Source of the DNA: a virus
Length of the DNA stretch: 23,165 nucleotides
Strand: one strand, 5' to 3'
Virus record (IMG/VR): IMGVR_UViG_3300007532_000005
Location: 1-23,165 of that record
Positions 8,401 to 22,986 of this stretch are shown here, in pieces. Under the pieces are notes generated by a model. The model was not told where the DNA came from, searched no databases, and worked only from the letters and a program-made list of their open reading frames with translations. The stretch's first letter is position 1. The number at the start of each line of letters is the position of its first letter. The translations under genes were made by a program, and so were the position numbers.

Positions 8401-8433
8401 TGGTAATCCCCCCGCGGTGAAAGTGAACGTATC

Positions 8434-11400: not shown

Positions 11401-11898
11401 TTCGTACTCCGCAAACTTGTCTCCGCCGCGGTCGTCTAACTTGATGACCGCATAGTCACCGAAGGGGTTGGCCGTGTCAACAAGCGGGTCCACGTCATAG
11501 ACAGCATCCTCTACCGTGTCGCCGTCGCGTGTCACCTGATATTCCACCGGCAGCACGTCGCTCGTCGCGTCCGTGGCAACGGTCGCCGCGGTTGTGGTTG
11601 CGCTCGCGGTTGTACTCGCTGCGCCTGCGCTTGTCGTTGCTGACGACGCCGTGGTTTGCGCGCCCGCCGTGGCGGGGGTTGCGCCTGCGCCTGTCGTTAT
11701 CGTGGTCGCCGTGGTTGTCGCGTTCGCCGTGGTCGTGGTTTGCGCGTCTCCGACCGCGAGCGAGTTCGCGGTTGTGTTAGATACGGCCGCCGCGATTGCT
11801 GCGAGCGTGCTGTCAAGGAGGCCGTAATCATACGTGGCGCTATAACCATAGTCATAGCCCGTTTCGGACTCAATCGTGGCCTCGGTGACGGTTGGCAT
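8434..11898 (-). CDS. Large tail hub / receptor-binding protein
   Basis: 1154 residues, the largest gene here. Residues 1-30 contain a YDYG-x5-YDYG repeat. Residues about 42-112 are almost only Thr, Ala, Ser and Gly, a flexible linker. Residues about 115-450 look like a tail-hub/baseplate domain (gp27/Tal-like strand-rich layout: FQDRFTGYVVERRENEQ, EVEAYSFDQFLRRNTVT, AEDIGRKYLKFRNSTLSGT, GDTIDITIDSRG). From about 500 on come beta-sandwich modules. Two related repeats begin NDGRRAVRD (602-) and NDGQTAVRD (717-) and run to SDTxLxN; the partner half (EFTASVTQTGVQELGL, 660-) recurs only at the C-terminus (ATVSPGTLTGETIREAGL, 1102-), so about 330 residues are inserted between. The insert is probably the receptor-binding part. 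A TTTAGG box lies at 11929-11934. Confidence 0.82.
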   Translation of the reverse strand: MPTVTEATIESETGYDYGYSATYDYGLLDSTLAAIAAAVSNTTANSLAVGDAQTTTTANATTTATTITTGAGATPATAGAQTTASSATTSAGAASTTASATTTAATVATDATSDVLPVEYQVTRDGDTVEDAVYDVDPLVDTANPFGDYAVIKLDDRGGDKFAEYERGTRVDVAVSTNAGITFQDRFTGYVVERRENEQAGADALEVEAYSFDQFLRRNTVTNDQRGNTISQALADIIQTDTPVSYVAGNVDVGDDQELTRSYQGEAVENVLRDFAFKSNNEEFGVNDALEFFFRPRETRHIDRGIDNTQWFRYDIPELGKEAINEVEVWFDDGDESVIVDDGTDKLDLQDNLGLPSPGTQRAELNRPLVTDIADAEDIGRKYLKFRNSTLSGTVTTFGLYDAEPGDTIDITIDSRGIDSEFVIAGVEYRWGVDETILTIIERRGDVDDILTDLNDSVQRVEMEGANRDAPSNRITTTNATALVGVSDSAAVVQDTDSGSVTGTTTTEFSQDTTGGYDASISVTLNDGESAEITVEVLNNGSVIDSDNTIGSASGGSATFSAQVSDSGVTFDEIRFTHSGDNTATWDYTVTEQEATAADRFVNDGRRAVRDTWTGDAAPDITTLVVGSDNAGLSRSNDTLRNQIASASVTQALPNATSVEFTASVTQTGVQELGLETADGRLITRAVFDGAVDLEGTVTVTLTVSNDASVSRGVLTNDGQTAVRDVLADNAPALPNAYGYGDNGTAVSESDTALGNELVDVSLTQILIQSADTQAEWQDIFPAPASDDPFTVDATDPGMEQIAWTTEGEAPDSEQTGFDATTNTGAYSGGDYWNGTRGEDISSPGDFAVWEFTPAHDIPADSVGVQVRDASPTTNAPAFEWRLIGPDSDTLLEELTVAGTVGFQDLPGWSDLTGRAVYDGPSEYNGPALEAGSTYQLRVDITDSDGSADAYQYNVDVVAPYDTRETSEITFDDTNNGSGGPLDGPQKYRTTDLRSLNTSDTRRNVTEASFTSTWNDVSNNQYVELANDSSTFTRFNNSDTGSVTFASSDRGVDTNLNFSRYTSDATTTPATGDSGQRIDSWELTANPDAVVPDNIGETLTRATVSPGTLTGETIREAGLKSGSTLLTRHILAEFSVESGQRIASAETSQFTGDN

Positions 11899-11941
11899 TG
11901 TGTTATGTCACGCGTTTGGATTGATAGACCTAAACACCGAG

Positions 11942-12607
11942 TCAAACACTAACGACGACCGTATCATCTATCCAACAATCCTGGTTCAATTGCCCGCCCC
12001 AATGGTCTGAGCCACTTCCCGCCACAATACGAATCTGCTCAATATCATAGGTCGCAGCGGATGCTAACCCGATTGTTTGTGATCGTGTTGCAGTTGAGCC
12101 ACCAATGTCTGTCCAAGTAATATTTGCATCTGTGTTAGTCCAATTAAAGGACACCTCAAACTCCCTCCACGTATCGTACTCGGGCGATGGTGTATCCTCA
12201 AGCGTCACGGAAGTTGCCCCTTCGGCGCGAACTTGCGGGTTGTCAGGGCCAACGTAAAGGATTGGGTCGCCGCTACTGGTTATAAATGTCATCACGGTGG
12301 CCCCATTATCCACAGTCTCATTATACGCAAATCCAAATGTATCCTCGTATTGGTTTGGCTCAAATGTGGCCGTCTCAGCGAGTGTGGACCCCTTTCCACC
12401 TGACGAAGTTAAGTAATAGGAATTAGGTGTGCTGTTAGCCCGCGAATCGTCAACCTGTCCGTCCCCCCTCACGTCAGACCACGGGCCGGGGTTACTCTCT
12501 CCGAGGCTGTCGGCGTCGAAATCATAGACTACGCTGTCGGGTATAACACTCGCCCCAACTGATACGTTCCGCAACGACCCACGCAATCCGGCTTCTTTGA
12601 AGCCCAT
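11942..12607 (-). CDS. Lectin-like jelly-roll virion protein
   Basis: 221 residues from an ATG overlapping the upstream stop (TAATG). It opens with MGFKEAGLRGSLRNVS, reminiscent of the EAGL segment in the large tail protein, then a domain with the look of a concanavalin/LamG-type sandwich: VYDFDADSLGESNPGPWSDV, YYLTSSGGKGSTLAETATF, DTFGFAYNETVDNG, WREFEVSFNWTNTDANITW. These domains commonly bind sugars, which suits adhesion to glycosylated archaeal S-layers. DNA is visibly AT-richer than the flanking tail genes, suggesting module exchange. Exact ligand unknown. Confidence 0.65.
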   Translation of the reverse strand: MGFKEAGLRGSLRNVSVGASVIPDSVVYDFDADSLGESNPGPWSDVRGDGQVDDSRANSTPNSYYLTSSGGKGSTLAETATFEPNQYEDTFGFAYNETVDNGATVMTFITSSGDPILYVGPDNPQVRAEGATSVTLEDTPSPEYDTWREFEVSFNWTNTDANITWTDIGGSTATRSQTIGLASAATYDIEQIRIVAGSGSDHWGGQLNQDCWIDDTVVVSV

Positions 12608-12939
12608 TAGCGTTCGTCCCCCGTGACGGCTACCTCGCCGCCAGTCGCGGCGTCATCAATCCGAAGCCGACGCTTCCCGCTATCCACGTACACGCGATTA
12701 AACTGCGTGTGGAAGCTCCCGGTAAAGGTCGTGTTGCCGTTCGCGTCTGTCAGTTGTGTCACTTGCGTCCATGACGTGCCGCCGTCGTTGGACGCTTCAA
12801 TAAAGATTTGTACGTCAAAGTCGCCGTACACCTCGTTGATAATCGCCGTCCCGGTGCTACTCGCGGAGCCGTCAAACGTTACACTCCCGCCGTCCGCCAC
12901 CGTGGCAAAGTCGGGGAGATACGGATCGTTTTGAGCCAT
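12607..12939 (-). CDS. Small beta-sandwich virion protein
   Basis: 110 residues starting MAQNDPYLPDFATVADGG. Strand-rich: GGSVTFDGSASSTGTAI, VQIFIEASNDGGTSWTQVTQL, GSFHTQFNRVYVDSGKRRLRIDD. The ASNDGGTSWTQV stretch resembles accessory domains of tail fibres and decoration proteins. It sits between the baseplate-like gene and the lectin-like gene in a tightly packed series, so a place in the tail tip is likely. Confidence 0.6.
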   Translation of the reverse strand: MAQNDPYLPDFATVADGGSVTFDGSASSTGTAIINEVYGDFDVQIFIEASNDGGTSWTQVTQLTDANGNTTFTGSFHTQFNRVYVDSGKRRLRIDDAATGGEVAVTGDER

Positions 12940-12941
12940 TG

Positions 12942-13397
12942 TTAGGCGAGGTCAAGCCGCGCGGTCACTTCGATACTGGTAAAGTTACTCAGGTCTTGCG
13001 AGCCAATATCAAGCGTCGCGCTGTAAATGTGGTGCGTGTTCTGCCCCGTCTCGCTATCCACCACGTCGCTCTGGAAGTCTACCACGCACATCGACGCGTC
13101 AACCGTGCCGGTCGTGCCGTCCACGTCAAACGTGACGGTGGCCTCGGCGCGGATATTGCCACCGACCTGCGTGATTGTCACGTCCGAACTATCAAGCGTA
13201 AACGACTGTCGCGTATAGTTGCCGTCCGTGGGTTCGGTTGTGACCGCACTCACGTCGTCGGCGTCACCGATGTTGTCCGTCGAGTCGTTGTATAACAGTA
13301 CCTCTACGCTTGTATCACGCGTGCCGAGGAGGTCTTGGCGAAATGCGTACTTATGTTCCCACTCCTCGCCGTAATCCGAGAGTCCGGTACTGGGCAT
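12942..13397 (-). CDS. Tail-tip/adhesin-associated beta protein
   Basis: 151 residues from MPSTGLSDYGEEWEHKYAFR. It begins with a mixed helix/strand segment (LLGTRDTSVEVLLYNDSTDN), then DDVSAVTTEPTDGNYTRQSF, a motif of strand and turn often seen in tail proteins of haloarchaeal viruses and other phages. Long strands follow (AEATVTFDVDGTTGTVDAS, HIYSATLDIGSQDLSN). It starts 24 bp from the repeated promoter motif at 13421-13438 and so heads a transcript that includes the genes down to 11942. Exact role unknown. Confidence 0.6.
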   Translation of the reverse strand: MPSTGLSDYGEEWEHKYAFRQDLLGTRDTSVEVLLYNDSTDNIGDADDVSAVTTEPTDGNYTRQSFTLDSSDVTITQVGGNIRAEATVTFDVDGTTGTVDASMCVVDFQSDVVDSETGQNTHHIYSATLDIGSQDLSNFTSIEVTARLDLA

Positions 13398-13420
13398 GGG
13401 CGTGACTTACGCCGCCCGCC

Positions 13421-13438
13421 CCTAAGCATTTGCCCTAT
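13421..13438 (-). promoter_or_regulatory. Tail-gene promoter motif, copy 1
   Basis: Minus strand ATAGGGCAAATGCTTAGG; its TAG is the stop codon of the upstream gene, and its last base is 24 bp before the A of the ATG at 13397. Near-identical copies at 16632-16649 and 18645-18660 have the same relation to their ATGs. CTTAG is centred at about -27. Confidence 0.65.
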
Positions 13439-14283
13439 GCGCTAAATATTCTTCTCAGTTCTAATTGGGGGATGCTCACCCAATCTTGCCCGGCGCTCTG
13501 GACTTGTCGGAACGGCGCGCTTCCCACGGGCACCGCCTCAATCGCGCCGAGGCCCAACATTCCGTTAAAGTCCACCGTGACGCCCTGCCGCCCTAATCGC
13601 TCGCGGAACACGTTATCCGTAATGCTATTTAAGACGCTTTGCGCGTTCTGGACCGCCTCAAAGTTAAACGTGAACAGGTCGCTTGTGACCTTCGCTTTGA
13701 CCTCATAGCGCGGATCGGCCTGTTGGGGTTGCCGGCGTATCGCGTCGTTCGGCCGCCCGACCGTGCGCTCTAAGCCGAGGCCCGCCGTTGGCACTTCTAC
13801 GGTGGTCCCACCGATCCGCAACTCAATCGGGCCGGTGCCCGTCGCGGTCGGCGTCGTCGCTTGTTGCTCGTTGACGCCAAGCACGTCCCCGACGCGCGTG
13901 AGGTTAAGCGACACGTTCACGTTATCCCGCTTGCCCGCCGGGTACTCCAGCGTAAGCGCCGTGTCTTGCCCCGCGGCCGGCGCGACGCGGAGCGTGTTGG
14001 GATATATGTCGGATGGCAAGGACAACTCCAGCGGGTCAAGCGACGCGCTCTTAATGAGGTCCGCGAGGTCGTGAGATTTCTGATAGTCAAAGAGCCGGCC
14101 GGCGAGTTGGACACCCTGTAAGGAACTCCATTGATCCTGTACCCTCGGGTTCAAGACACCCCCCGACTCACGGACTTGCGTCTCGGGCTTCCCAAACGTA
14201 CTCGAAACCAGTATCTCGCCGCCCTCCTCTACAAGCGGGATCTCAACGCTTGTGGTCCCGCGCGACAGGGTGGCGACGGCCAT
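13435..14283 (-). CDS. Distal-tail (Dit)-like protein
   Basis: 282 residues starting MAVATLSRGTTSVEIPL directly after the tape-measure stop. The position after the tape measure and before the hub/adhesin genes is the Dit/baseplate slot in siphoviruses. The N-terminal half is strand-rich and contains VQLAGRLFDYQKSHDLADLIKSA and LPSDIYPNTLRVAPAAGQD; later LTLEYPAGKRDNVNVSLNLTRV suggests the split-barrel common to tail tube and Dit proteins. The C-terminal part (FTFNFEAVQNAQSVLNSITDNVF, VDFNGMLGLGAIEAVPV) is unassigned. Assignment rests mainly on gene order. Confidence 0.6.
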   Translation of the reverse strand: MAVATLSRGTTSVEIPLVEEGGEILVSSTFGKPETQVRESGGVLNPRVQDQWSSLQGVQLAGRLFDYQKSHDLADLIKSASLDPLELSLPSDIYPNTLRVAPAAGQDTALTLEYPAGKRDNVNVSLNLTRVGDVLGVNEQQATTPTATGTGPIELRIGGTTVEVPTAGLGLERTVGRPNDAIRRQPQQADPRYEVKAKVTSDLFTFNFEAVQNAQSVLNSITDNVFRERLGRQGVTVDFNGMLGLGAIEAVPVGSAPFRQVQSAGQDWVSIPQLELRRIFSA

Positions 14284-15441
14284 TTACAGCCCCCGCCGCC
14301 GGCTTGGGTCGCTGCGATAGCGCCCGGTGGACTCGGTGAGCGTGCGGCCGTCAAGCGATACGCCCTGCCCGTTTGCCGTGCGTGCGATTGGTCGCCCGCG
14401 GCCGCCCGGCGTTCCGCCTGCCGTGCCGCCGCCGCCTTCGTCAAGACGGCCAAAGGAGAAGTTCCCACCCACGTCAACGCCGGGGAGGTTTGACAGCAGA
14501 TCGGCAATACCATTTGCTAAAAATTCAATATCGCTAATCACATCATTCACGAACGGCGCGATTAGCCCCTTAATCGCGTTTATCACTTCTTCAAACAGCG
14601 GCTTCCAGCGCGAAATAGTGCGCTCAATAAAGCCCGTGATTGTTTGGAGCGCGCCGTCAAAGTCGCCTGTAAGTAACTGTAGTCCCGCTTGGACAACGGT
14701 GAGGATAGCATCAAATGCCTGCTCAAATGCCGTGCCAACAACTCGGAGCGCAAAGTTCACCGCCGAGATAATCGCGTCACCGTTATTATCCCAGAACTTT
14801 TCCAACCGGTTTAGGAACCCTTGGACAATCGGGCCGACCACCGAGATAAATTTTTGGAGGCGGGAGCGGATGGCGTTCACCGTCGATTCAACAACGCCGC
14901 GGATATTCGCAAAGTTCGTTTCCCACGCCGTCCAAAGCGCGGCGACCGCCGCCGCCGCGCCCGCAATCGCCAGCAGGATCGGGCCGGTGAGTGTCACACC
15001 CACGGCGGCGAGCGCGCCCGCGACTAATCCCGCAAGTGACGCGACAACCCCTAATCGGCCGATTAACTTCCCCATCCCCCCATCTGCCTCAAAAATCGCA
15101 TTTGCAATTTCAAAGAGCGTGTTTGTAACGTCTGAAATCGCGGGCCGCAAGACGCTATCCATCTTAAGCGCGACAGCATCAACAATTGCGCTTAGGCCGC
15201 TAAACGCTTCGCCTAAGACGGGGACTTGCGACAGTAAGCCGGCCGCTCCGAGGGCTAACGCACCGACCGCGGCGGTCATGGCCCCGGCAAAGCGTTCGGA
15301 AAAGCCTTGGAGTTGCTCGGCACTACTTCCGGCGCTTTCGGCGGTATCCGACATGGACTCCTCAACGCCCTGAAGGTCGCTTTTCGTTTCGTTTACGCCT
15401 TGTGACTTAATCGCAACCGTCAGCTCCTCGGCTGTCACCAT
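14284..15441 (-). CDS. Tail tape measure protein
   Basis: 385 residues. A Ser/Glu-rich N-terminus (VNETKSDLQGVEESMSDTAE) leads to long Ala/Gly/Val/Leu-rich helical stretches (AGAMTAAVGALALGAAGLL, VASLAGLVAGALAAVGVTL, ILLAIAGAAAAVAALW), then amphipathic helices rich in Ile/Phe (FISVVGPIVQGFLNRLEKFW). The Gly/Arg-rich C-terminus probably hangs free. The layout and place after two small chaperone-like ORFs are typical. By the usual 0.15 nm per residue this predicts a tail near 55-60 nm, short for a siphovirus. A T-rich box (CTTTTG, 15470-15475) lies about 31 bp upstream. Confidence 0.82.
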   Translation of the reverse strand: MVTAEELTVAIKSQGVNETKSDLQGVEESMSDTAESAGSSAEQLQGFSERFAGAMTAAVGALALGAAGLLSQVPVLGEAFSGLSAIVDAVALKMDSVLRPAISDVTNTLFEIANAIFEADGGMGKLIGRLGVVASLAGLVAGALAAVGVTLTGPILLAIAGAAAAVAALWTAWETNFANIRGVVESTVNAIRSRLQKFISVVGPIVQGFLNRLEKFWDNNGDAIISAVNFALRVVGTAFEQAFDAILTVVQAGLQLLTGDFDGALQTITGFIERTISRWKPLFEEVINAIKGLIAPFVNDVISDIEFLANGIADLLSNLPGVDVGGNFSFGRLDEGGGGTAGGTPGGRGRPIARTANGQGVSLDGRTLTESTGRYRSDPSRRRGL

Positions 15442-15469
15442 AGTTGCGTGCGACTAACACGGCGGAGGG

Positions 15470-15475
15470 CAAAAG
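15470..15475 (-). promoter_or_regulatory. T-rich box upstream of the tape measure gene
   Basis: Minus-strand CTTTTG within ACGCTTTTGCC, about 31 bp before the ATG at 15441. It resembles the CGCTTAGG core of the repeated tail promoter but is weaker. Possible internal promoter. Confidence 0.35.
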
Positions 15476-15486
15476 CGTGCGGGCTA

Positions 15487-15675
15487 TCACGGCCCGTTTT
15501 GTGACCGCTCGCTTGCCCGTTTCTTTTCCTGATACCACCGCGCCCGAACGAGCGCCGTGAGGTATCGGTCCCACCGATCCATCTTGTGTATCTCCCGAAA
15601 CGTCATGTCCGTCCCGTCTTGAACGAGGGCGTACTGGAGGATTTCGTCGCTACTCTTTGCGAAACCCGTCCGCAT
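15487..15675 (-). CDS. Tail assembly chaperone, second (T-like) ORF
   Basis: 62 residues as an independent ORF (MRTGFAKSSDEIL, ending YQEKKRASERSQNGP). Aromatic/charged helices such as EIHKMDRWDRYLTALVRARWY are typical of the downstream half of G/GT-type chaperone pairs lying just before the tape measure. It overlaps the upstream ORF by 26 nt in the +1 (equivalently -2) frame. It could be reached by ribosomal frameshifting at the end of the upstream ORF or by its own ATG at 15675, in front of which I see only a poorly spaced GGAG. See findings. Confidence 0.6.
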   Translation of the reverse strand: MRTGFAKSSDEILQYALVQDGTDMTFREIHKMDRWDRYLTALVRARWYQEKKRASERSQNGP

Positions 15676-16135
15676 CTCCGCGCAGCCGTTCGTCCTCTTT
15701 GCGGAGTGCGTCCATCACCTCCTCTAAGATACGCCGGACGGGCGCGACGCCTTCGGCCTGATACGTCTGATACACGCCGCGGGCCGTAATCTCGTCGTCG
15801 TCAACGAGGTCGTCAATAATCTCCCCGAGTTCACGGACAATATCAGATACGCCGTCAGGCGCGTCCTCGTCGTTCGCACGGCGTTTTGCTTCGGCGTCAA
15901 GGCGTTCCACCCGCTCGATGAACGCGCCGTTCAAGCGCCCGCTCACGGGGATTGTGACGCCCGCAATTGTGGCTTTCGTTTCGAGTAGGGGCGCACCCTC
16001 CTCGTCGGCAACGGCGTCAAAGAGGTCGTGCTGTTCGGCTTTGGACTGTTGATAGTCTTCATGCGCCGCTAGCGCAAGGTCCGCTGCGAGTTCGTCCGGG
16101 TTGTCGGCGGCCATCCCAACCGGATCGTCACCCAT
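15650..16135 (-). CDS. Tail assembly chaperone, first (G-like) ORF
   Basis: 161 residues from MGDDPVGMAADNPDELA, immediately downstream of the tail tube gene and upstream of the short chaperone ORF and tape measure: the standard slot for lambda gpG-like chaperones. Sequence is acidic and helical (QQSKAEQHDLFDAVADEEG, FIERVERLDAEAKRRANDED, RELGEIIDDLVDDDE) with a short strand pair (TKATIAGVTIPVSGRLNG). Such proteins coat the tape measure during tail assembly and are absent from the virion. It ends GFRKE before a TAG overlapped by the next ORF. Confidence 0.68.
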   Translation of the reverse strand: MGDDPVGMAADNPDELAADLALAAHEDYQQSKAEQHDLFDAVADEEGAPLLETKATIAGVTIPVSGRLNGAFIERVERLDAEAKRRANDEDAPDGVSDIVRELGEIIDDLVDDDEITARGVYQTYQAEGVAPVRRILEEVMDALRKEDERLRGDADGFRKE

Positions 16136-16137
16136 AC

Positions 16138-16608
16138 TTAGGCCCCGGACGTGTCGCTAAAGTCGCTTAGCTGTCGGCCCGACCCGGATAGGTCCCACTC
16201 CTCATACTCGCCGTAACTTCCTTCAACCACGGGGAACTCGGGAAACACCACGTTCTCCACGACGGCCGTGCGTTCAAACGTGCCGTCCGCGCTCGGCGTC
16301 ACGTCCTCAATGCTAAAGAGCGCCGGGTCGGAGTCGTCTTGTGACGCGGTGGCCGTCGCGCCCTCCCCGCCGAGCCATTCCTGCGCGGCTTCAACGCTAA
16401 ACTTCGCGTAGGTGATTTCCACGTTCACGTTATGCTCGTACCGCTTCACGGTATCGCGGAAGCTACTATCCATCGTATACAGCTCCTCATGCTCATACGC
16501 GGGGACAATCGATACCTCTTGAATCCCGGCAATCGGGACGGTCGTATCCGCGGAGTTCTGGACCGACAGCGTGCGCGCGTTGCTCCAAATAGCTTCCTCG
16601 GTACTCAT
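16138..16608 (-). CDS. Major tail tube protein
   Basis: 156 residues from MSTEEAIWSNARTLS. I choose the ATG at 16608 over 16617 because the repeated promoter motif lies 24 bp upstream, as at two other genes. The protein is strand-rich, with paired beta segments (TVPIAGIQEVSIVPAYEHEEL, VNVEITYAKFSVEAAQEWLGG, FERTAVVENVVFPEFPVVEG) as in the split-barrel of lambda/HK97-type tail tubes. Placement between the tail terminator region and the chaperones, and a promoter of its own, suit a highly expressed tube subunit. No sheath gene accompanies it, pointing to a siphovirus. Confidence 0.72.
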   Translation of the reverse strand: MSTEEAIWSNARTLSVQNSADTTVPIAGIQEVSIVPAYEHEELYTMDSSFRDTVKRYEHNVNVEITYAKFSVEAAQEWLGGEGATATASQDDSDPALFSIEDVTPSADGTFERTAVVENVVFPEFPVVEGSYGEYEEWDLSGSGRQLSDFSDTSGA

Positions 16609-16631
16609 ACCCGACACAAAACGGCGGCGGG

Positions 16632-16649
16632 CCTAAGCGTTTGCCCTAT
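16632..16649 (-). promoter_or_regulatory. Tail-gene promoter motif, copy 2
   Basis: Minus strand ATAGGGCAAACGCTTAGG. The TAG is the stop codon of the membrane-protein gene and the last base is 24 bp before the A of the ATG at 16608. Differs from copy 1 by one base. Likely drives the tail tube gene. Confidence 0.65.
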
Positions 16650-16969
16650 TCGTCGCCCGACTCCTGTTGTGCCGCGGCGTCTTGGACCTCTTTGTACGCG
16701 CGGAGCAAGGCGAGATAGTCCCCGAGTTCAAGCCCGTTGTACGCGCCGATCACACTAAACGCAAGGACCGAGATAATTGTCGGGTCGCCCCCGACGCGCA
16801 GCGTGTAGAACCAGCCCGCAAAGAGGCCGACGTTCACGACAATCGCGCGAATGATTTTGAGCTTCTTTAGCATCGGAAATTGGTCACTTCCGTCTTGGAG
16901 CGACGACTTGTATTCATCAACCACGCCGCTCCGACAGTACCACGGCCTGCGCTTGGATAGTTCACTCAT
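16646..16969 (-). CDS. Small membrane protein, two transmembrane segments
   Basis: 107 residues starting MSELSKRRPWYCRSG. Two hydrophobic segments, IIRAIVVNVGLFAGWFYTL (about 39-57) and IISVLAFSVIGAYNGLEL (about 65-82), are joined by a short loop (RVGGDPT), with charged soluble ends; the C-terminus is acidic. Its start overlaps the 18-residue ORF (ATGA). It is unusual to find a membrane protein between the tail terminator and tail tube genes. A role in entry, virion egress (holin-like) or exclusion can be imagined; there is no lysis enzyme nearby to support egress. Confidence 0.68.
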   Translation of the reverse strand: MSELSKRRPWYCRSGVVDEYKSSLQDGSDQFPMLKKLKIIRAIVVNVGLFAGWFYTLRVGGDPTIISVLAFSVIGAYNGLELGDYLALLRAYKEVQDAAAQQESGDE

Positions 16970-17022
16970 GACTCACTATGTGCGCGTATTGACGCCGTGA
17001 TATTAATGTCCGGCTTACTCAT
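16966..17022 (-). CDS. 18-residue ORF coupled to both neighbours
   Basis: ATG at 17022 overlaps the stop of the tail terminator gene and its TGA overlaps the ATG of the membrane-protein gene (ATGA at both ends). Encodes MSKPDINITASIRAHSES. It fills the gap exactly, which would carry ribosomes from one gene to the next. It may be a coupling device and not a functional peptide. Confidence 0.4.
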   Translation of the reverse strand: MSKPDINITASIRAHSES

Positions 17023-17486
17023 GGTTTCGCGGTGTCGCTTAAGCCCGTCGTCTCGACCGTGACGGACATAACGTAGTGGTTTGTGTCCCGCGCCGGCTTT
17101 TGCTCGCGGAAGTCCGCTTGCCCGGTCGGGTGTACGTCACTATACGGCGTGTTCACGGTGTTGTCATCAAGGTACTGCGAGAGAATCCGCGTCACGTCGC
17201 TCTGGAGTTGCCGAGCTTCTTGCTCGTCTAAGCTCCACGCTTGAATCTCGACGGTCGTGTTTTCAAGAAAGTCGTCGCCGTCCATGCTAAACGTCTCAAG
17301 CTGCGAGTCGGTCGGACTCCACAGGTACAACACGCCCGGTTGGTCCGCGCCCGGCCCGCGCTCGCTTTGGGCGTCATCCCAATAGTTGCGGATCGCGGGC
17401 GTGGCCGGCGTCCAGTCCGTATCGGGCGCGGCCTCAAGAAGCGCCTTGATTTCCTCCACGTGTGTCGTTGCGTCCGTCGCGCTCAT
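17019..17486 (-). CDS. Tail terminator / completion-like protein
   Basis: 155 residues from MSATDATTHVEEIKALL. The order connector, HK97-gp10-like, this gene, tail tube is the standard placement of the tail terminator. The predicted pattern fits the family: an N-terminal helix (HVEEIKALLEAAP), then GVLYLWSPTDSQLETFS, a strand followed by the long helix EQEARQLQSDVTRILSQYL, and a final strand (HYVMSVTVETTGL). Family hexamers cap the growing tail tube at the head-proximal end. A T-rich box (GTTTTA, about 17511-17516) lies 26-27 bp upstream of the start. Confidence 0.65.
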   Translation of the reverse strand: MSATDATTHVEEIKALLEAAPDTDWTPATPAIRNYWDDAQSERGPGADQPGVLYLWSPTDSQLETFSMDGDDFLENTTVEIQAWSLDEQEARQLQSDVTRILSQYLDDNTVNTPYSDVHPTGQADFREQKPARDTNHYVMSVTVETTGLSDTAKP

Positions 17487-17509
17487 ACGCGCCCTTATGC
17501 GGCGACGGG

Positions 17510-17516
17510 GTAAAAC
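17510..17516 (-). promoter_or_regulatory. TATA-like box upstream of tail terminator gene
   Basis: Minus-strand CGTTTTACC, centred 26-27 bp before the ATG at 17486, in a 36-bp gap between genes. Leaderless promoter candidate. Confidence 0.45.
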
Positions 17517-17522
17517 GCCGCC

Positions 17523-17771
17523 CTACTCGACGCGCGTAAACATCCCCTCCGCGAGTGACGGCGGGGCCTTGTGCGCGTCGCGGGCGTGGGTCGCACGCTT
17601 GTCCTCGGGCACCTCGGCGTCGCACCTGTCGCACGCGTAGGTCGGCGGCGTGTCGTCGTCGCCCGCGTCGCGCGCTTGGAGCATGACGCGGATTTGCTGG
17701 AGTTCGGTTAGTATGCCTATGAGTATGTCCTTGTCGTCTAGGTCGTCGTATTGCTCGCTATAGTCGTCCAT
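17523..17771 (-). CDS. C2H2 zinc-finger protein in the tail operon
   Basis: 82 residues. A very acidic, helical N-terminus (MDDYSEQYDDLDDKD, then ILIGILTELQQIRVMLQ, likely coiled coil) precedes a short finger: CDRCDAEVPEDKRATHARDAH, i.e. Cys-X2-Cys and two histidines. The gene lies between the HK97-gp10-like and terminator genes, 5 bp after the former, so it is co-transcribed with structural genes. It may be an assembly factor or a late regulator; no known tail protein matches it. Confidence 0.62.
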   Translation of the reverse strand: MDDYSEQYDDLDDKDILIGILTELQQIRVMLQARDAGDDDTPPTYACDRCDAEVPEDKRATHARDAHKAPPSLAEGMFTRVE

Positions 17772-17776
17772 GATTG

Positions 17777-18196
17777 TTATAGGTCAAGTCCATGGTTGTC
17801 TAGCCATGGTTTCATCCGCTCGGCGGCCGGGCGGAGGTACGGCTGCGCGTCGACGCCCTCTTGCGGGATTTTCTCGGTCGCCACCCACACGCCAAAGCCG
17901 GGGTCTTTGCCGATCCGTTGCGCCCACCGCTTGAGCGGTTCAATCGGCGGCGTGTGGCCCGGCTCGGTCCCGTATTCCATCGGCGCGGCTTGGCGGGCGG
18001 TGTAGCCGAACACCACGTCCTCCTCCCTAAACTCCGGCGGGAACCCCGATTGCTGGAGCGTCCCCGTGTCGACCGGCACGCGCTCTTGCGACACGCTAAA
18101 GCCGAGTTGCGACGCTTGTTTGACGCGCTCGCGGTGGGCTTGATACACGTCCTCGGCCGTCACGTCAACGGTGAGGTCAACACTCGCCTCAAGCAT
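17777..18196 (-). CDS. HK97 gp10-like head-tail joining protein
   Basis: 139 residues with the hallmark pattern of this family: an early helix (DVYQAHRERVKQASQLGF), then VPVDTGTLQQSG, a strand (VVFGYTARQAAPMEYGTEPGH) and a C-terminal PYLRPAAERMKPWL. The P-V-D-T-G-x-L and Y-x-x-x-x-E-Y-G-T elements are well known in HK97 gp10-type proteins, which lie at the neck between connector and tail. It follows the connector gene by 1 bp and precedes the terminator, as expected. Confidence 0.82.
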   Translation of the reverse strand: MLEASVDLTVDVTAEDVYQAHRERVKQASQLGFSVSQERVPVDTGTLQQSGFPPEFREEDVVFGYTARQAAPMEYGTEPGHTPPIEPLKRWAQRIGKDPGFGVWVATEKIPQEGVDAQPYLRPAAERMKPWLDNHGLDL

Positions 18197-18197
18197 T

Positions 18198-18620
18198 CTA
18201 ATAGCTCCTGACGACGCTTATGGACGAGTCCTCCCACACGTGCCGGAGCGCGGTCTTGCCGAACCGGGTAAGCGTTAGATAGTCCTCCACGTTGCCCGTG
18301 GTGTATGACACGCTCCCGCCCTCGCCGCTTTCGCTTTGGGCTTCGCCACCCTCCGCGAGTTCCATCTTGTGCGCGGCGAGATTGAGGCTAAACACCTCGG
18401 CGTCACCGTCAAGCGTCGGCAGGCGACTCATGCGGTCGGTATACAGCGTGTCGCGTTCGGCAATCGCGGAGCGGATCGCCTCGCTCTTGCGCTCGCGGGA
18501 GAGTTGCGCCCAGCCGGTGGAGCTTAGATATTCGACTTGCTCAATAATGTCGTCTTGCTCTTGGGTGGTCGCGGCGTCCCAATCGCTCTTACTCAACTCG
18601 TCAATACTCGGGTCGGGCAT
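18198..18620 (-). CDS. Head-tail connector-like protein
   Basis: 140 residues from MPDPSIDELSKSDW; the ATG at 18620 is supported by the promoter motif 25 bp upstream, so the longer MSPS reading is rejected. N-terminal helices (ATTQEQDDIIEQVEYLS, WAQLSRERKSEAIRSAIAER) and a segment AEVFSLNLAAHKMELAEGG resemble DUF-type connector proteins that sit between portal and tail; the middle is Gly/Ser-rich. Position as first gene of the neck-tail series supports the call. Sequence evidence alone is modest. Confidence 0.6.
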   Translation of the reverse strand: MPDPSIDELSKSDWDAATTQEQDDIIEQVEYLSSTGWAQLSRERKSEAIRSAIAERDTLYTDRMSRLPTLDGDAEVFSLNLAAHKMELAEGGEAQSESGEGGSVSYTTGNVEDYLTLTRFGKTALRHVWEDSSISVVRSY

Positions 18621-18644
18621 ATGGCACGCTACGCGCGGCCGGTC

Positions 18645-18660
18645 CCTAAGCGTTTGCCCG
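18645..18660 (-). promoter_or_regulatory. Tail-gene promoter motif, copy 3
   Basis: Minus strand CGGGCAAACGCTTAGG, starting right after the TAA of the zinc-ribbon gene (18661-18663); the last base is 25 bp before the A of the ATG at 18620. The GGGCAAACGCTTAGG core is identical to copy 2. Confidence 0.62.
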
Positions 18661-18846
18661 TTAGGGCGCGTCTGTGTGGACGGACTCAAAGCGTTGCCAC
18701 GCGTCGCACTCGGTACAATAGTGTTCCGTCCGGCGTTGCGGCGTCTGGATCGTCGCGCCGTGGCCGCACGCCCGACACGTGTGCGTGCCGTCCGGGTCGC
18801 TGTCGGCGTCGTTCCACTCCTCGCGGGACCACCAGCGTTGCGACAT
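18661..18846 (-). CDS. 61-residue zinc-ribbon protein
   Basis: Starts MSQRWWSREEWND at 18846, exactly leaderless with respect to a TATA-like box at 18868-18875; the longer reading crosses that promoter. It has CRACGH and YCTEC about 20 residues apart, a zinc ribbon, and a tail containing AWQRFESVHTD. It is the most upstream gene of the tail-region series and might be a regulator of late genes, but that is only suggested by position. Confidence 0.65.
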   Translation of the reverse strand: MSQRWWSREEWNDADSDPDGTHTCRACGHGATIQTPQRRTEHYCTECDAWQRFESVHTDAP

Positions 18847-18867
18847 ACGTGCGTGTTTGTGGCGCAC

Positions 18868-18875
18868 TTTCAAAA
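18868..18875. promoter_or_regulatory. Single TATA-like box serving two divergent genes
   Basis: TTTCAAAA on plus, TTTTGAAA on minus, is centred at 18871.5: about 26 bp from the A of the ATG at 18846 (minus) and about 26 bp from the ATG at 18898 (plus). It is the only A/T-rich stretch in the 51-bp divergent gap, so both leaderless transcripts may use it. Confidence 0.55.
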
Positions 18876-18897
18876 CGCTACGGGGCGAAGCGGACGC

Positions 18898-19182
18898 ATG
18901 AGTTGGGGCACGCTCCCGGTGTGGCAAGACGCCGCGATAGCCCTCGGGTCCGCGGTCGGACTCCTCACTAAGTTCTACGCGCTTGCCGACACGGATACGG
19001 TATGGTCGCGCCGCTCCTCTGTCGTCAACGCCGCCTTTTACCCGCCGTCACTCGCCGCGTTTGCGTCACTCGGGCTATGGCTCACCTTTACGGCGTCGTG
19101 TCTGTCGTTCCTCACGTGGGTCGGGATTGCCGTGTGGCGTGCGCCGGACGGTGAGGATTGGCTTGGCCGCACGGACGCGTGA
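18898..19182 (+). CDS. Small membrane protein
   Basis: 94 residues from MSWGTLPVWQDAA at 18898 (a longer in-frame reading upstream is shadow of the minus-strand genes). A moderately hydrophobic helix (about 12-29, AAIALGSAVGLLTKFYAL) is followed by a long hydrophobic stretch (about 50-81, PSLAAFASLGLWLTFTAS continuing to VGIAVW), enough for one or two membrane crossings, and an acidic tail (APDGEDWLGRTDA). It is isolated on the plus strand between minus-strand genes and shares a promoter region with the zinc-ribbon gene. Unknown function; envelope modification or lysis are options. Confidence 0.65.
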   Translation: MSWGTLPVWQDAAIALGSAVGLLTKFYALADTDTVWSRRSSVVNAAFYPPSLAAFASLGLWLTFTASCLSFLTWVGIAVWRAPDGEDWLGRTDA

Positions 19183-19183
19183 C

Positions 19184-20659
19184 TTACTCGCGGTCGTAGT
19201 GCCGCGTATCAATCGGGAATACGCCGGTTAGCCCGTCGTCGCTCACCCCGTGCGCGTGTGCGATAGTGGGCACGTTCGGCCCCGTCACCTCCCCCAGCTT
19301 GCGCGCGTACTCGCCGCCGGGCTTCGGACTCCCGGTGATTAGCACGGGCGGGCCGTTCCACGGCAAGCGCCCCGATACGTGGTGGTGGCCCATCCATATC
19401 ATGTCAACCGCCGTCCCCGCGTTGAGGCTGTCGAGAATCGTACTCAGCCATTCCTTTTTGCGCGCCGAGGTGTCGGCCTGCGGGCTGCGGTCTTGCCCGT
19501 GGCGGAGTTGCCCGTGGATCGCGCCGTCGCGCAGGTAGAACACGGTCGGCCGGCCGGCGCGACCAATCGTGAACTCCACGTTTTCGAGTTGCCCGCACTC
19601 TTGAAGCGCGGCCACCGTGTTCCGCACGCTCTTGTAGAGGATAAGATCCGCGTTCGCTTGCTTGCTAGAGCCGTTGGCGCGTATCTCGCCGTGGTTGCCG
19701 GCTTGGCATACGATATGGACCTTGGGGAACGCTTCGGATAGCGCCTTGAGGTGGCGTAAGAGCGGGTCGTGGAGTACGTCAATCTGTTCGTCAAGCCATG
19801 CGTCTAAGTCCTCAAATTGGCCCTCATAGATGGATTCGTTCGTCACAAAGTCGCCGCCCCAAAGCGAATAGGCCGTGCGATAGTCCGACCCGTGCTTGTC
19901 CGCGAGGGCCAACGACCGCTCGGTGATATGGTCAATCATCGGCGGCAAGTCCTCGGTGCGGTGTACCACGTCGCCTTGATACCCAAGCACTTCATCCCCG
20001 GCGTGGAGGTCCGTCAGGTGCGTCACCCAATCTTCCGCGCCCGACGCGTCGCCCTGTGGCGTGGCGGTGGGTGTGTCCAACTCTCGATAGCGTCGTTCAA
20101 GCGCGGAGTGTGTGAGTTCCCACCACCGATTTGCCTTCCGGGTGCGCGTGCCCTTGTGTTCGCTTGACCGCAGGGGTTCGTCCGTCTCTAAGCCGATGTA
20201 TTCCGCCGTCTCGTCAATATAGACCTTCCATCCCGACCGGCGGAGTTCGCGCAAATGCTCGGTGATAATCGCGTCGCGTTCGTCAAGCCGCCCGGTGAGG
20301 TCGTCAAGCGTCGCCCCGGTTTGGAGTTCGGACACAAGCACGCGCTCGCGGTCGGTGAGGTCATCCATATCCGGCGCGGCGTCCGCAACGGGCGTGTCGG
20401 ACAAGTCCGGCAGCGCGTCGCTCTCGTCGTCTGAGCCGGTGGTGTCAACGGGGTCGTCGGGGGCGTCCCCGAGCGTGAATATCCGACTATTTCCGTCGCG
20501 TTCCGAATGGAGGTCATAGCCCGCCGCCCGCAACGCCGCGAAGTGATCGCTCACCGTGGATTTGGTCACGTCCAGCGCGTCGGCAATCTCGCCGCGTGTC
20601 GTCGCGCCACTTGACAACTCACGCAGTACCTCGGCCTCTCGCTCCGAAAGGTCCGGCAT
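19184..20659 (-). CDS. Double winged-helix / calcineurin-like phosphoesterase fusion
   Basis: 491 residues from MPDLSEREAEVLREL (ATG 20659, about 29 bp after a TATA-like box). Residues 2-62 form a winged helix (TTRGEIADALDVTKSTVSDHF) and about 100-157 a second (LTDRERVLVSEL, EHLRELRRSGWKVYIDE), joined by an acidic linker. Residues about 210-485 are a metallophosphoesterase with all metal motifs visible: D217-L-H219, G269-D270, G321-N-H323, H382 and G424-H-H-H427. The order recalls Mre11/SbcD-like nucleases, but many members act on other phosphodiesters. Fusion to two DNA-binding domains argues for a DNA substrate or DNA-linked regulation. It is convergent with the membrane protein gene and separated from it by 1 bp. 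Confidence 0.85.
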   Translation of the reverse strand: MPDLSEREAEVLRELSSGATTRGEIADALDVTKSTVSDHFAALRAAGYDLHSERDGNSRIFTLGDAPDDPVDTTGSDDESDALPDLSDTPVADAAPDMDDLTDRERVLVSELQTGATLDDLTGRLDERDAIITEHLRELRRSGWKVYIDETAEYIGLETDEPLRSSEHKGTRTRKANRWWELTHSALERRYRELDTPTATPQGDASGAEDWVTHLTDLHAGDEVLGYQGDVVHRTEDLPPMIDHITERSLALADKHGSDYRTAYSLWGGDFVTNESIYEGQFEDLDAWLDEQIDVLHDPLLRHLKALSEAFPKVHIVCQAGNHGEIRANGSSKQANADLILYKSVRNTVAALQECGQLENVEFTIGRAGRPTVFYLRDGAIHGQLRHGQDRSPQADTSARKKEWLSTILDSLNAGTAVDMIWMGHHHVSGRLPWNGPPVLITGSPKPGGEYARKLGEVTGPNVPTIAHAHGVSDDGLTGVFPIDTRHYDRE

Positions 20660-20684
20660 TACGTGAACGGTAGGGCCACGGGCG

Positions 20685-20692
20685 CAAAAAGG
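20685..20692 (-). promoter_or_regulatory. TATA-like box upstream of the phosphoesterase gene
   Basis: Minus-strand CCTTTTTG, centred about 29 bp before the ATG at 20659. It suggests the phosphoesterase can be transcribed independently of the small genes upstream. Confidence 0.45.
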
Positions 20693-20701
20693 CACGCCCG
20701 C

Positions 20702-20812
20702 TTAGGCGTTAGACTCAACCACGCGATAGTGAACGCCCGGCTCGCCCTCTATGATGTACTTCTCAACAACCGTGCCCTGTCGGTATTGGGTATCAATAAC
20801 GCGCTCAGTCAT
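20702..20812 (-). CDS. 36-residue hypothetical protein
   Basis: ATG at 20812 overlaps the stop of the upstream gene by 8 nt. Sequence MTERVIDTQYRQG, a strand pair (TVVEKYIIEGEPGVHYRVV) and ESNA: a small beta-hairpin protein. Supported by coupling and by halophile-like composition only. Function unknown. Confidence 0.5.
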   Translation of the reverse strand: MTERVIDTQYRQGTVVEKYIIEGEPGVHYRVVESNA

Positions 20813-21044
20813 GGTCGTACTCGTCAAACGTCCGCTGGACCACAAAGTAACTCCGAATCTCCAAGAGCGTCGACCGGCCGCTTATCTCGTCGGTGTCGGC
20901 CGCGCCTGCGAGCCGGCGCTTGAAGTGTTGGTCGAATTGGTCAAACTCCGCGGCCGTAAACGTGAGGTCGTCGGCCTCGTTGCGTTCAATCGCCGTCTCC
21001 GCGACAAGCTTCGGCGGCTTGGGGGGTTGCTCGGCTTGGCTCAT
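20805..21044 (-). CDS. Hypothetical acidic protein, 79 residues
   Basis: Starts MSQAEQPPKPPKLVAETA at 21044, overlapping the upstream zinc-ribbon stop (ATGA). It has a Pro/Lys-rich start, a helical middle (ADDLTFTAAEFDQFDQHFKRR) and a C-terminal STLLEIRSYFVVQRTFDEYD. No motif recognised. Part of a coupled run of five or six tiny genes upstream of the phosphoesterase. Confidence 0.55.
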   Translation of the reverse strand: MSQAEQPPKPPKLVAETAIERNEADDLTFTAAEFDQFDQHFKRRLAGAADTDEISGRSTLLEIRSYFVVQRTFDEYDHD

Positions 21045-21178
21045 GAATCAAGTGGCGTAATACTCCCGCACTCGGAGCAACGGAAGGCTTGTGCGTATGC
21101 GAGCGTGTCTTCACGCAGTGGCTCTTTGAAGTCATCAGACACCGCGCCACACGTATCACACGGTGGATAGTCGCTCAT
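21041..21178 (-). CDS. 45-residue zinc-ribbon micro-protein
   Basis: ATG at 21178 overlaps the upstream stop, and its own TGA overlaps the next ATG (ATGA at both ends). It has CDTCG near the N-terminus and CSECG near the C-terminus, about 24 residues apart, a complete four-cysteine zinc ribbon, with ITPLDS at the end. Like the other micro-zinc proteins of the window, likely a nucleic-acid or protein adaptor. Confidence 0.6.
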   Translation of the reverse strand: MSDYPPCDTCGAVSDDFKEPLREDTLAYAQAFRCSECGSITPLDS

Positions 21179-21387
21179 ACCCGTTCCGCCCCCTCAAGCG
21201 CGTCCCGAATCGCGTCGGCGCTATCCCGCCCGTTCACCGCGTCGGTTGGATGCTCGGCGGCGAGACTCTGGAGTTCGCGGCCGTCCATGCGCTCAAGCTC
21301 CTCGGCGCTATACTTGTTGTCGAGAAACGGGTCGTTTGAGTCGTCGGGGATGAACGACCGCGACCACGTGGGGCGATTGCCGCTCAT
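21175..21387 (-). CDS. Hypothetical acidic protein, 70 residues
   Basis: Starts MSGNRPTWSRSFIPDDS at 21387 (overlapping the previous gene's stop, ATGA); the longer start is rejected. The middle is DPFLDNKYSAEELERMDGREL and the rest helical (SLAAEHPTDAVNGRDSADAI). The YSAEELERMDGRELQSLA pattern is like a SAP/HeH-type helix-extended-loop-helix, which would bind DNA; this is a weak resemblance. Confidence 0.52.
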   Translation of the reverse strand: MSGNRPTWSRSFIPDDSNDPFLDNKYSAEELERMDGRELQSLAAEHPTDAVNGRDSADAIRDALEGAERV

Positions 21388-21548
21388 CGTTTCACCCCCA
21401 CCGTCGCGCCACAAGTGCGGCACTCACGCTCTGCCAACTGCGGCCCCCAACACGAACGGTGCCCGTGCGCCCGGTTGATAATCCCGGCAAGTCGGACGTG
21501 AGAGTGAAAGCAAAACGGTTCGGCCTCATGCTCAAGAATTTCAGTCAT
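21384..21548 (-). CDS. 54-residue Cys/His-rich protein
   Basis: Starts MTEILEHEAEPFCFHSHVR at 21548. C13, H15, H17 and a later C, then CRTCGATVGVKR at the C-terminus give a probable zinc site. It is the second gene of the run that starts at 21799, just 2 bp after its neighbour. Unknown function. Confidence 0.55.
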   Translation of the reverse strand: MTEILEHEAEPFCFHSHVRLAGIINRAHGHRSCWGPQLAERECRTCGATVGVKR

Positions 21549-21550
21549 GG

Positions 21551-21799
21551 TTAGCGGTTTCGGAGCGTCCGCACGTCGGTCCCGTTAATCCCGAACAGGT
21601 CAATCGTGCGCCGGAACAGATACATCCGGGGGTTATCCTCGCCCGTAATCTGTGCCGTCTCAAGGTTGTACTTGATAATCTCGGTGTTACTAAAGAACGC
21701 GTCTAAGTCGCCGCTATACGCCTGTTCACGGGCGCGCTGCCGCTGTTGGTGCCACTCCCTATCCAGCGGACGCGCACCGGGAGAACGCCTTAGTTGCAT
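21551..21799 (-). CDS. Hypothetical protein, 82 residues
   Basis: Starts MQLRRSPGARPLDREWHQQR, a basic N-terminus, then QAYSGDLDAFFSNTEIIKYN, and a basic C-terminus (MYLFRRTIDLFGINGTDVRTL). The charge pattern is unusual for this acidic proteome and suits nucleic-acid contact. First gene of the small-gene run, with a TATA-like box 30 bp upstream. No family recognised. Confidence 0.55.
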   Translation of the reverse strand: MQLRRSPGARPLDREWHQQRQRAREQAYSGDLDAFFSNTEIIKYNLETAQITGEDNPRMYLFRRTIDLFGINGTDVRTLRNR

Positions 21800-21824
21800 A
21801 CACGGAGGATATGAACCCGGTGCG

Positions 21825-21832
21825 ACAAATAT
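21825..21832 (-). promoter_or_regulatory. TATA-like box for the small-gene run
   Basis: Minus-strand ATATTTGT, centred about 30 bp upstream of the ATG at 21799, in the 44-bp gap after the HNH gene. Confidence 0.45.
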
Positions 21833-21843
21833 CTACCGGCGGT

Positions 21844-22410
21844 TTATCCGGGTAAGTCGTGTTTGCGAACATGCTCGCCTTGATTCTCAAGCACTTCTAT
21901 GTTTTCCGCGCGGTTGTCCCACGGGATCTTATTCTTGTGGTGGACAACAGCATCCCCGTCAAACAAGTCGGACGGATTGGCACCGTCCGCAATCGCAACT
22001 AATTGATGAACGTATGCCATGCCGCCGCCCGACGCGACCATGACGTGTCCGCGCGGGTGCGTCCGATACGCGGCGTGTTCGCCGTGGTGTTTCCGGATCG
22101 CTTCTTTCCGCGACCGAACGCTAATGTTGTGGTGGCGGAGAGACTTTTGGACATGGTTGCGTGAGTAATCTTCACCCTTGGCTATTTCCCGCGCCGACTG
22201 TTCTTGGTCGACATACTCACGTTGTAGCCTTTCTTTCGGTATCGGCTTGTTCTCCCACCCATCCGGTCGGTCAATACCGTACTCGTTCAACCGCCGCCGA
22301 ACCGTCCGCGGCGACGCGTCGGCCAACTCCGAGATTTCGCTCGCGCTCAACCAGTCATCAACGTACTTCTCTCGCACCCATTCCGCGTCTAACTCAATCT
22401 TCGGCCCCAT
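21844..22410 (-). CDS. HNH endonuclease-like protein with N-terminal HTH domains
   Basis: 188 residues from MGPKIELDAEWVREKY (ATG 22410; an in-frame ATG at 22431 is possible). Residues about 8-48 form a helix-turn-helix (SASEISELADASPRTVRRRL) and about 58-98 a second (SAREIAKGEDYSRNHVQKSL). Residues about 120-184 form the nuclease: YVHQLVAIADGANP, then VHHKNKIPWDNRAENIEVL with both histidines and asparagines, and HVRKH. It lacks the C-terminal repeat of its paralogue at 2659-3360. Likely a free-standing homing endonuclease or similar selfish gene; it neighbours another AT-richer cassette. Confidence 0.85.
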   Translation of the reverse strand: MGPKIELDAEWVREKYVDDWLSASEISELADASPRTVRRRLNEYGIDRPDGWENKPIPKERLQREYVDQEQSAREIAKGEDYSRNHVQKSLRHHNISVRSRKEAIRKHHGEHAAYRTHPRGHVMVASGGGMAYVHQLVAIADGANPSDLFDGDAVVHHKNKIPWDNRAENIEVLENQGEHVRKHDLPG

Positions 22411-22414
22411 GTAT

Positions 22415-22466
22415 CCATACAGACACCACAAACACTAAGGGCTTATGGTACAACGTGCCTGTATGG
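22415..22466. promoter_or_regulatory. Inverted repeat spanning a divergent promoter
   Basis: CCATACAG (22415-22422) and CTGTATGG (22459-22466) are perfect 8-bp arms 36 bp apart, centred between the divergent ATGs at 22410 and 22463; the right arm includes the plus-strand start codon. Candidate operator for the 38-residue antitoxin-like protein, controlling both genes. A weak CTTAG box sits at the centre. Confidence 0.45.
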
Positions 22467-22579
22467 GTAAGACCCATATTGAAATCCGCGAGGAAACGCG
22501 GGACGAACTACGGGTTTTCAAGGCCGAACATGGCATGACCTACGATGAGGCAATTCAAGAGTTGATGGATAATGAGTGA
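22463..22579 (+). CDS. 38-residue antitoxin-like (RHH/VapB-type) protein
   Basis: Sequence begins MGKTHIEIREETRDELRVFK and continues AEHGMTYDEAIQELMDNE: one strand (THIEIREET) and two helices, the minimal layout of a ribbon-helix-helix antitoxin or of the short VapB-like proteins common in haloarchaea. The stop overlaps the start of the next gene by 8 nt, the usual order for antitoxin-toxin pairs. The downstream protein is not a known toxin, so the pairing is a hypothesis. Confidence 0.65.
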   Translation: MGKTHIEIREETRDELRVFKAEHGMTYDEAIQELMDNE

Positions 22580-22940
22580 TAAAACGTATCGCGTCCGAAT
22601 TTGGCACAGTTACTACGATGAATATCCAGATGAACCGGACGAGATTGTGGAAGTAAAGGCAAGGAAACCCCACTTATGGAAAGAAGATCCATATTTTGAT
22701 AGTGGGTCATGTGCCTTTGATATTCATCCAGACGACGCACCAGCAACGCTTGAAATATACACGAGTGAATCGGTGCGTTCTCCCCCCGGATATGAGAACC
22801 ATGTTGAAACGGCATATTGGAACGGCCCGGTGGAGCAGGGGTTGCCGTTTGACCCAGACAGATATGACGGCTACCCACCGTTTGGATGCGAAGTGTGGGG
22901 CCGGGTATTATTCTACGTAAAAGACGGCCTAACACGCTAA
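22572..22940 (+). CDS. Unknown 122-residue protein paired with antitoxin-like gene
   Basis: Starts MSDKTYRVRIWHSYYDEYPD, overlapping the upstream gene. Aromatic-rich and strand-rich: IVEVKARKPHLWKEDPYF, ATLEIYTSES, ENHVETAYWNGPVEQG, PPFGCEVWGRVLFYVKDGL. It has no PIN, RelE, MazF or nuclease signature that I can see. The DNA is visibly AT-richer, with more A-ending codons than neighbours, suggesting recent transfer. A bidirectional terminator-like hairpin follows. Possible new toxin, anti-defence or superinfection factor, but nothing in the sequence fixes this. Confidence 0.65.
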   Translation: MSDKTYRVRIWHSYYDEYPDEPDEIVEVKARKPHLWKEDPYFDSGSCAFDIHPDDAPATLEIYTSESVRSPPGYENHVETAYWNGPVEQGLPFDPDRYDGYPPFGCEVWGRVLFYVKDGLTR

Positions 22941-22986
22941 AAGACCCGCGCGCCGGGTGAGCGTCGGAGTTGCACACGCGGGCTTT
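22940..22986. terminator. Bidirectional terminator-like hairpin
   Basis: CCCGCG (22945-22950) pairs with CGCGGG (22977-22982); AAAG at 22940-22943 continues the stem with CTTT at 22983-22986 past a 1-nt bulge. Transcripts from the left leave a stem ending in CTTT; those from the right end in a stem followed by TCTTTT. It lies between convergent genes ending at 22940 and 23018. Confidence 0.5.

Follow-up and report, generated by a model that had tools for sequence, protein, structure and literature searches.

A winged-helix phosphoesterase of the HRTV-4 gp47 family as a candidate for handling the ends of viral DNA

A gene in the window (the whole 23,165-nucleotide stretch analysed here, DNA from a virus of salt-loving archaea) encodes two winged helices joined through a conserved tether to a metallophosphoesterase (MPE). 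The reading that we favour, giving it about an even chance of being correct, is a late-module, virion- or packaging-associated phosphodiesterase handling the ends of the virus's own DNA. Judged by its match to phrog_284 (E 3.7e-52, residues 157-462) and its 94% identity to gp47 of HRTV-4, the protein is a member of a known viral family. What this analysis adds is the assignment to a DP1-like enzyme, the linkage to packaging genes, and two traits of the protein: a tether conserved at 86% and a first winged helix that evolves fast. The gene and its parts are as follows:

19184..20659 (-), the whole gene, 491 residues, orthologue of HRTV-4 gp47 (94% identity)
20465..20653 (-), first winged helix (wHTH1), residues 3-65, evolving fast and in some relatives absent or of another kind (Pfam, AlphaFold)
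20366..20464 (-), acidic linker, residues 66-98, 33% D/E and no K/R, pLDDT below 50 at residues 68-80
20186..20365 (-), second winged helix (wHTH2), residues 99-158, retained by relatives with a single winged helix
20117..20185 (-), basic tether, residues 159-181, near-invariant (86% mean pairwise identity), containing RSSEHKGTRTRKANRWWE
19202..20038 (-), DP1/Mre11-type MPE, residues 208-486 (phrog_284, the family alignment A1, AlphaFold, Foldseek, VIA-align, hhalign)

The gene is a single unbroken open reading frame that runs from an ATG at 20659 to a stop at 19184. This ATG, used in the original prediction, is the conserved start; an alternative GTG at 20695 would give 503 residues, and that start is missing from HRTV-4 and from locus L007. 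The window is a 23-kb virus record, shorter than HRTV-4, and is a fragment. Compared with HRTV-4, the whole gene is under purifying selection (dN/dS 0.10), and the ratio for the MPE is 0.046 against HRTV-4, 0.038 against L007, 0.023 against L005 and 0.029 against L008. The gene is real, intact, conserved and under selection, and its domain arrangement is not due to chance. A chance open reading frame is rejected by the purifying selection together with the wide conservation.

The two N-terminal winged helices proposed in the original prediction are borne out by Pfam, by the structure prediction suggested there as a check, and by relatives. wHTH1 passes the cut-off of Pfam HTH_5 (E 7.6e-10, residues 10-48). 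AlphaFold models it as three helices followed by two strands at residues 6-63 (helices 6-16, 22-29 and 33-45, strands 50-55 and 58-63), with pLDDT of 83-94 in these blocks, and the N-terminal model resembles MarR, BirA and ArsR (VIA-align, Z up to 9.7). wHTH2 of the window protein has no Pfam match; it is modelled with the same order of elements at residues 103-157 (helices 103-114, 118-125 and 129-141, strands 146-149 and 154-157), mostly with pLDDT of 81-93, and the matching segments of L053 and HRTV-7 gp60 pass the cut-off of Pfam HTH_11. Upon alignment of the two winged helices with each other, 16 of 51 residues are identical and the score is 76, compared with a mean of 24.9 for shuffled sequences (none of 2000 shuffles scored as high), a likeness which suggests that they arose by duplication.

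The mean pairwise identity in the family alignment is 0.28 for wHTH1, 0.29 for the linker, 0.53 for wHTH2, 0.86 for the tether and 0.64 for the MPE. The linker is acidic, as had been predicted. The most constant segment is thus the 23-residue tether and not the enzyme. The tether is modelled at low confidence (pLDDT below 50 at residues 160-181); a constant segment with such a model is what would be expected of one that binds DNA or a partner. The alignment comprises 35 sequences, near-duplicates above 92% identity having been left out. Also omitted were loci whose open reading frame is cut short by the edge of the contig at the 5' end (L011, L031, L034, L039, L050) or the 3' end (L049), the annotated records L002 and L003, L004, which is identical to the window protein, and L052 (456 residues, homology in more than one piece). 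Loci from a later IMG/VR search based on this alignment are not part of it; they were counted in the neighbour census described below if their MPE reading frame was detectable.

The homologues in HF2, HCTV-1 and HRTV-7 have one winged helix, which aligns with wHTH2, and lack wHTH1. The Salinibacter form has an N-terminal part that lacks a Pfam match and, when aligned, does not resemble wHTH1. Synonymous divergence from HRTV-4 is 0.585 in wHTH1 and 0.293 in the MPE (Fisher p 0.0002, on rounded counts). This suggests either that recombination has exchanged the module or that change is faster locally. With L007 the gap is smaller (0.543 versus 0.469), and in the comparisons with L005 and L008 wHTH1 does not change faster (no nonsynonymous changes). 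The gene seems also to move as a unit, since its DNA is 88% identical to that of HRTV-4 over its whole length, compared with 71-75% in the flanking blocks.

Several other features of the window were observed. Across positions 7459-21805, stretches resembling HRTV-4 and stretches resembling HRTV-29 form a mosaic, and among the blocks longer than 1 kb the phosphoesterase gene is closest to HRTV-4 (88%). A segment of about 1.1 kb at 21800-22947, containing an HTH-HNH endonuclease reading frame at 21844-22431 (phrog_7545, E 2.8e-26), interrupts a region that runs on unbroken in HRTV-4, where the HNH gene has another location; this looks like a mobile insertion of the homing-endonuclease type. A second HNH endonuclease at 2659-3360 combines an HTH with a homing-endonuclease-associated repeat (Pfam HNH_repeat, E 3.3e-12) and shows short DNA similarity to HRTV-4 gp40. 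The reading frame at 5246-5788 matches phrog_6788 (unknown function, E 7.4e-28).

The MPE carries the motifs D217-x-H219, GD270, GN322-H323, H387 and GH425-x-H427. All 35 aligned sequences share the eight residues D217, H219, D270, N322, H323, H387, H425 and H427, which confirms the complete motif set of the original prediction. Residue 426 is H in 20 sequences and Y in 15. In a distant Microbacterium homologue (20% identity), Q replaces H219. With its invariant metal site and low dN/dS, the enzyme looks active. The motifs together with the fold matches from Foldseek and VIA-align place the domain in the calcineurin-like MPE superfamily, the Pfam Metallophos model alone remaining under its cut-off (E 0.012).

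A Foldseek search of the PDB gave DP1 of PolD in the first eight rows (best E 3.9e-8), followed by Rv0805 and Mre11 of M. jannaschii. The VIA-align scores were Z 14.4 for MJ0936 (rmsd 2.5, 164 residues aligned), Z 14.2 for T. maritima Mre11 (rmsd 4.2, 206 aligned) and Z 13.4 for DP1 (rmsd 4.2, 237 aligned). As these values do not separate DP1, Mre11 and MJ0936, the fold alone does not decide. PDB sequence searches with the window protein and the HF2 homologue returned nothing on the MPE, and a search with the profile of the family alignment gave weak DP1 matches only (E 0.012-0.098).

In a tblastn search (E 1e-5), 255 of 50,697 phage records matched, 195 of them over at least 80% of the query. 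They comprise 183 Salinibacter, 49 Halorubrum, 17 Haloarcula, 2 Halovirus, 2 Halophage, 1 Hardygib1 and 1 Actinomycetia records; two are 90-95% identical (both entries of HRTV-4) and 253 are below 60%. In IMG/VR, the single protein as query led to 51 loci and the family alignment to 63, the two sets overlapping. Four loci in the GTDB collection are in haloarchaea and are probably proviruses. The family is thus widespread in hypersaline archaeal viruses and Salinibacter phages, yet its labels conflict: exonuclease (RefSeq and PHROG-284, in the latter an annotation name), HTH domain protein, calcineurin-like of ApaH type, DNA polymerase II small subunit, YonJ-like and putative exonuclease/Mre11. 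A passage in PMC2194725 likens BJ1 ORF43 to an HF1 protein that "may be a YonJ like, small subunit of the DNA polymerase", and one in PMC3316494 records calcineurin-like genes on halovirus fosmids. Term searches of PMC8651126, PMC7911831, PMC3950731, PMC12494034 and PMC8727067 yielded no statement on the gene.

The neighbour census covered 73 loci with a detectable MPE reading frame, which form 48 clusters at 90% identity. A gene of a TerL or portal group lies less than 4 kb away on the same strand in 34 of the 48 clusters, downstream in 27 and upstream in 7 (raw counts); these labels come from one PHROG-scanned representative per BLAST group, and that of portal group 1 has matches to head-morphogenesis families as well. 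Three TerL groups, unlinked by BLAST, take part in this adjacency. The other 14 clusters have no such neighbour within 4 kb, some of their loci having short flanks. Individual genomes in which the gene lies upstream of terminase genes are CGphi46, BJ1, Hortus1 and HRTV-DL1. In HRTV-4 and HRTV-29 it is flanked by capsid genes on one side and neck genes on the other. In HRTV-4, which belongs to the clade of the window, the TerL, portal and capsid genes are 11.4 kb, 7.4 kb and 2.6 kb upstream, respectively, and neck genes lie downstream. The terminase adjacency could also be an effect of the border between early and late operons, for which a similar picture would be expected; the authors of the BJ1 study assign ORFs 1-43, including the homologue, to replication and transcription. 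As a separate observation, the phosphoesterase has a gene of a DNA methyltransferase group no more than 0.7 kb away in L003 (HRTV-29, 6050-6958), L016 (8044-9747), L017, L059 and L069, and no such gene beside it in HRTV-4; this pairing of methylase and nuclease might merit a look.

ORF4 of HRTV-DL1 is 47% identical to the window protein over its full length, with both winged helices aligned, and downstream of its gene come ORF5 and ORF6, with the TerS, TerL and portal genes after them. According to Mercier et al. 2023 (PMC10544981), the ORF4 product was detected by mass spectrometry in CsCl-purified, DNase-treated particles. The same study describes the genome as linear in particles and the DNA in cells as mostly exonuclease-resistant and circular, and proposes that ORF4 might aid circularisation (PMC10544981). 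The detection comes from one study, and contamination is possible. No other experimental evidence on the family, and no enzymatic or nuclease assay of any member, was found in the literature searched. The case that the original prediction named as counting against it, an already characterised fusion family, is half borne out, the family being catalogued and one homologue having been detected in a virion.

The neighbourhood of packaging genes and a homologue reported in virions fit a role at DNA ends. The preferred reading builds on the HRTV-DL1 detection, which by analogy may carry over to the window virus. The winged helices and the basic tether would keep the enzyme on viral DNA, while a DP1-like two-metal site would trim or nick it, be it during the cutting and packaging of the linear genome or in readying its redundant ends for circularisation after entry. 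Neither a Rad50-type ATPase nor a viral polymerase would be needed. DNA as the substrate, end-processing as the reaction and site recognition by wHTH1 are predictions of this scheme. The 14 of 48 clusters that lack the neighbour, the distance of 11 kb to TerL in the clade of the window, the VIA-align tie and the H219Q replacement in the Microbacterium homologue count against it. Among the self-targeting DNA roles of the original prediction, the one at DNA ends fits the packaging neighbours and the virion homologue, whereas degradation of host DNA or counter-defence is favoured by nothing here. If genome ends are indeed processed in the particle or during packaging, this would go some way to explaining how these viruses pass between a linear packaged and a circular intracellular form of their DNA; the isolates HRTV-DL1 and HRTV-4 allow a test.

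A virion nuclease with an exchangeable address can also be envisaged, although we think it unlikely. An ATPase-free, DP1-like enzyme would accompany the packaged genome and be aimed by wHTH1 at the packaging site or terminal repeat, so that wHTH1 would vary with the site while the tether and the cutting domain stayed constant. We know of no description of such genome-end processing in tailed viruses.

Clearly less likely than the preferred reading is a viral DP1-like exonuclease of replication or proofreading, editing the DNA made by host PolD or by a viral polymerase. The labels "DNA polymerase II small subunit" and "YonJ-like" (BJ1, HCTV-1, HRTV-5, HRTV-7) and the DP1-like motifs II-III would suit it. 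Profile searches of ten relatives' records found PolB in the three larger relatives, HCTV-1, HF2 and HRTV-7; it is, however, missing from the other seven, and the N-domain of DP2 was found in none of the ten. Moreover, the winged helices (Pfam and model) occupy the place of the OB domain in the DP1 layout given in a passage of PMC4104785, the gene lies among head genes in HRTV-4 and HRTV-29, and a homologue has been detected in the virion (HRTV-DL1).

It appears quite improbable that the enzyme serves host takeover or counter-defence by degrading host DNA or cleaving the nucleotide signals of defence systems. Rv0805, an enzyme with cyclic-nucleotide activity, is among the Foldseek rows, and delivery in the virion would suit early action. 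A passage of PMC7824862 predicts a counter-nucleotide role for orthologues of T5 A1. However, small molecules need no pair of DNA-binding domains, the neighbourhood consists of late genes, and the PADLOC matches are confined to the first HTH. As these matches are to Csa3, CasR and CARF models, a component of a known defence system is not supported.

Very improbable is a protein that mainly regulates late-gene transcription, with the phosphoesterase as an accessory: wHTH1 scores best with ArsR/MarR-type regulators and the gene is at module borders in BJ1 and CGphi46, but the enzyme is more conserved than wHTH1 (0.64 versus 0.28, with dN/dS of 0.02-0.05) and invariant in its catalytic residues, and the homologues of HF2, HCTV-1 and HRTV-7 do without wHTH1.

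Among known systems, the T5 A1-type calcineurin phosphodiesterases are likewise phage MPEs, with a predicted counter-defence role (passage in PMC7824862), and are likened to the window protein by description only. Mre11/SbcD shares the fold and the metal-site motifs. Nevertheless, motif II of the window family is GDFVT, with T273 invariant in 35 of 35 sequences, and not GDLFH as in three host Mre11 proteins. The AAA_23 profile (Rad50/SbcC), which was positive in 14 of 14 control genomes, matched one of the ten relatives' records, that of Salinibacter phage 4_15, and was not found in the other nine, HRTV-4 included. The earlier observation that no Rad50/SbcC is encoded, which the window fragment alone could not settle, holds for nine of the ten records, HRTV-4 among them. 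The MPE apparently works without such a partner, although host Rad50 could serve as one. Membership in Mre11/SbcD is rejected, given the absence of the motif-II histidine three residues after the aspartate and of Rad50 in HRTV-4.

PolD DP1, a 3'-5' exonuclease, resembles the window protein in the top Foldseek rows, in motifs II-III (GGDFVTNESIYEGQ in the window family, GDMVEGVGVYPDQ in DP1), in GNH and in GHxH. Using hhalign, the family alignment matched three haloarchaeal DP1 sequences with P 6e-6 over motifs II-III, and three host Mre11 sequences with P 0.18 at motif I only. NCBIfam DP1 models give no match to the window protein, and their matches to the homologues of HF2 (E 1e-7) and HCTV-1 stay far below the cut-offs. 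Sequence and Foldseek ranking together lean towards DP1 rather than Mre11/SbcD. In contrast to DP1, the window protein has two winged helices in place of the OB domain, DP2 is absent from the virus records tested, and identity in the fold alignments is about 15%; strict membership is rejected on the first two of these grounds. The enzyme thus probably acts as a DP1/Mre11-type DNA phosphodiesterase while belonging to neither family. Of the DNA phosphodiesterase originally predicted and set beside Mre11/SbcD, the DNA-directed MPE is supported, with DP1 and Mre11 high in the Foldseek ranking, and the kinship to Mre11 gives way to DP1.

The closest likeness is to the HRTV-4 gp47/PHROG-284 family. 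The domain architecture of the window protein recurs there, and the fusion is not novel, full-length homologues with two winged helices being present in HRTV-4, BJ1 and HRTV-DL1. HRTV-29 gp49, BJ1 ORF43, CGphi46 HALG_00010 and HRTV-DL1 ORF4 belong to this family; together with HRTV-4 gp47 they are 47-94% identical to the window protein over their full length, with both winged helices, the tether and the MPE aligning. The differences are those between orthologues, and the window gene adds a new sequence to the family.
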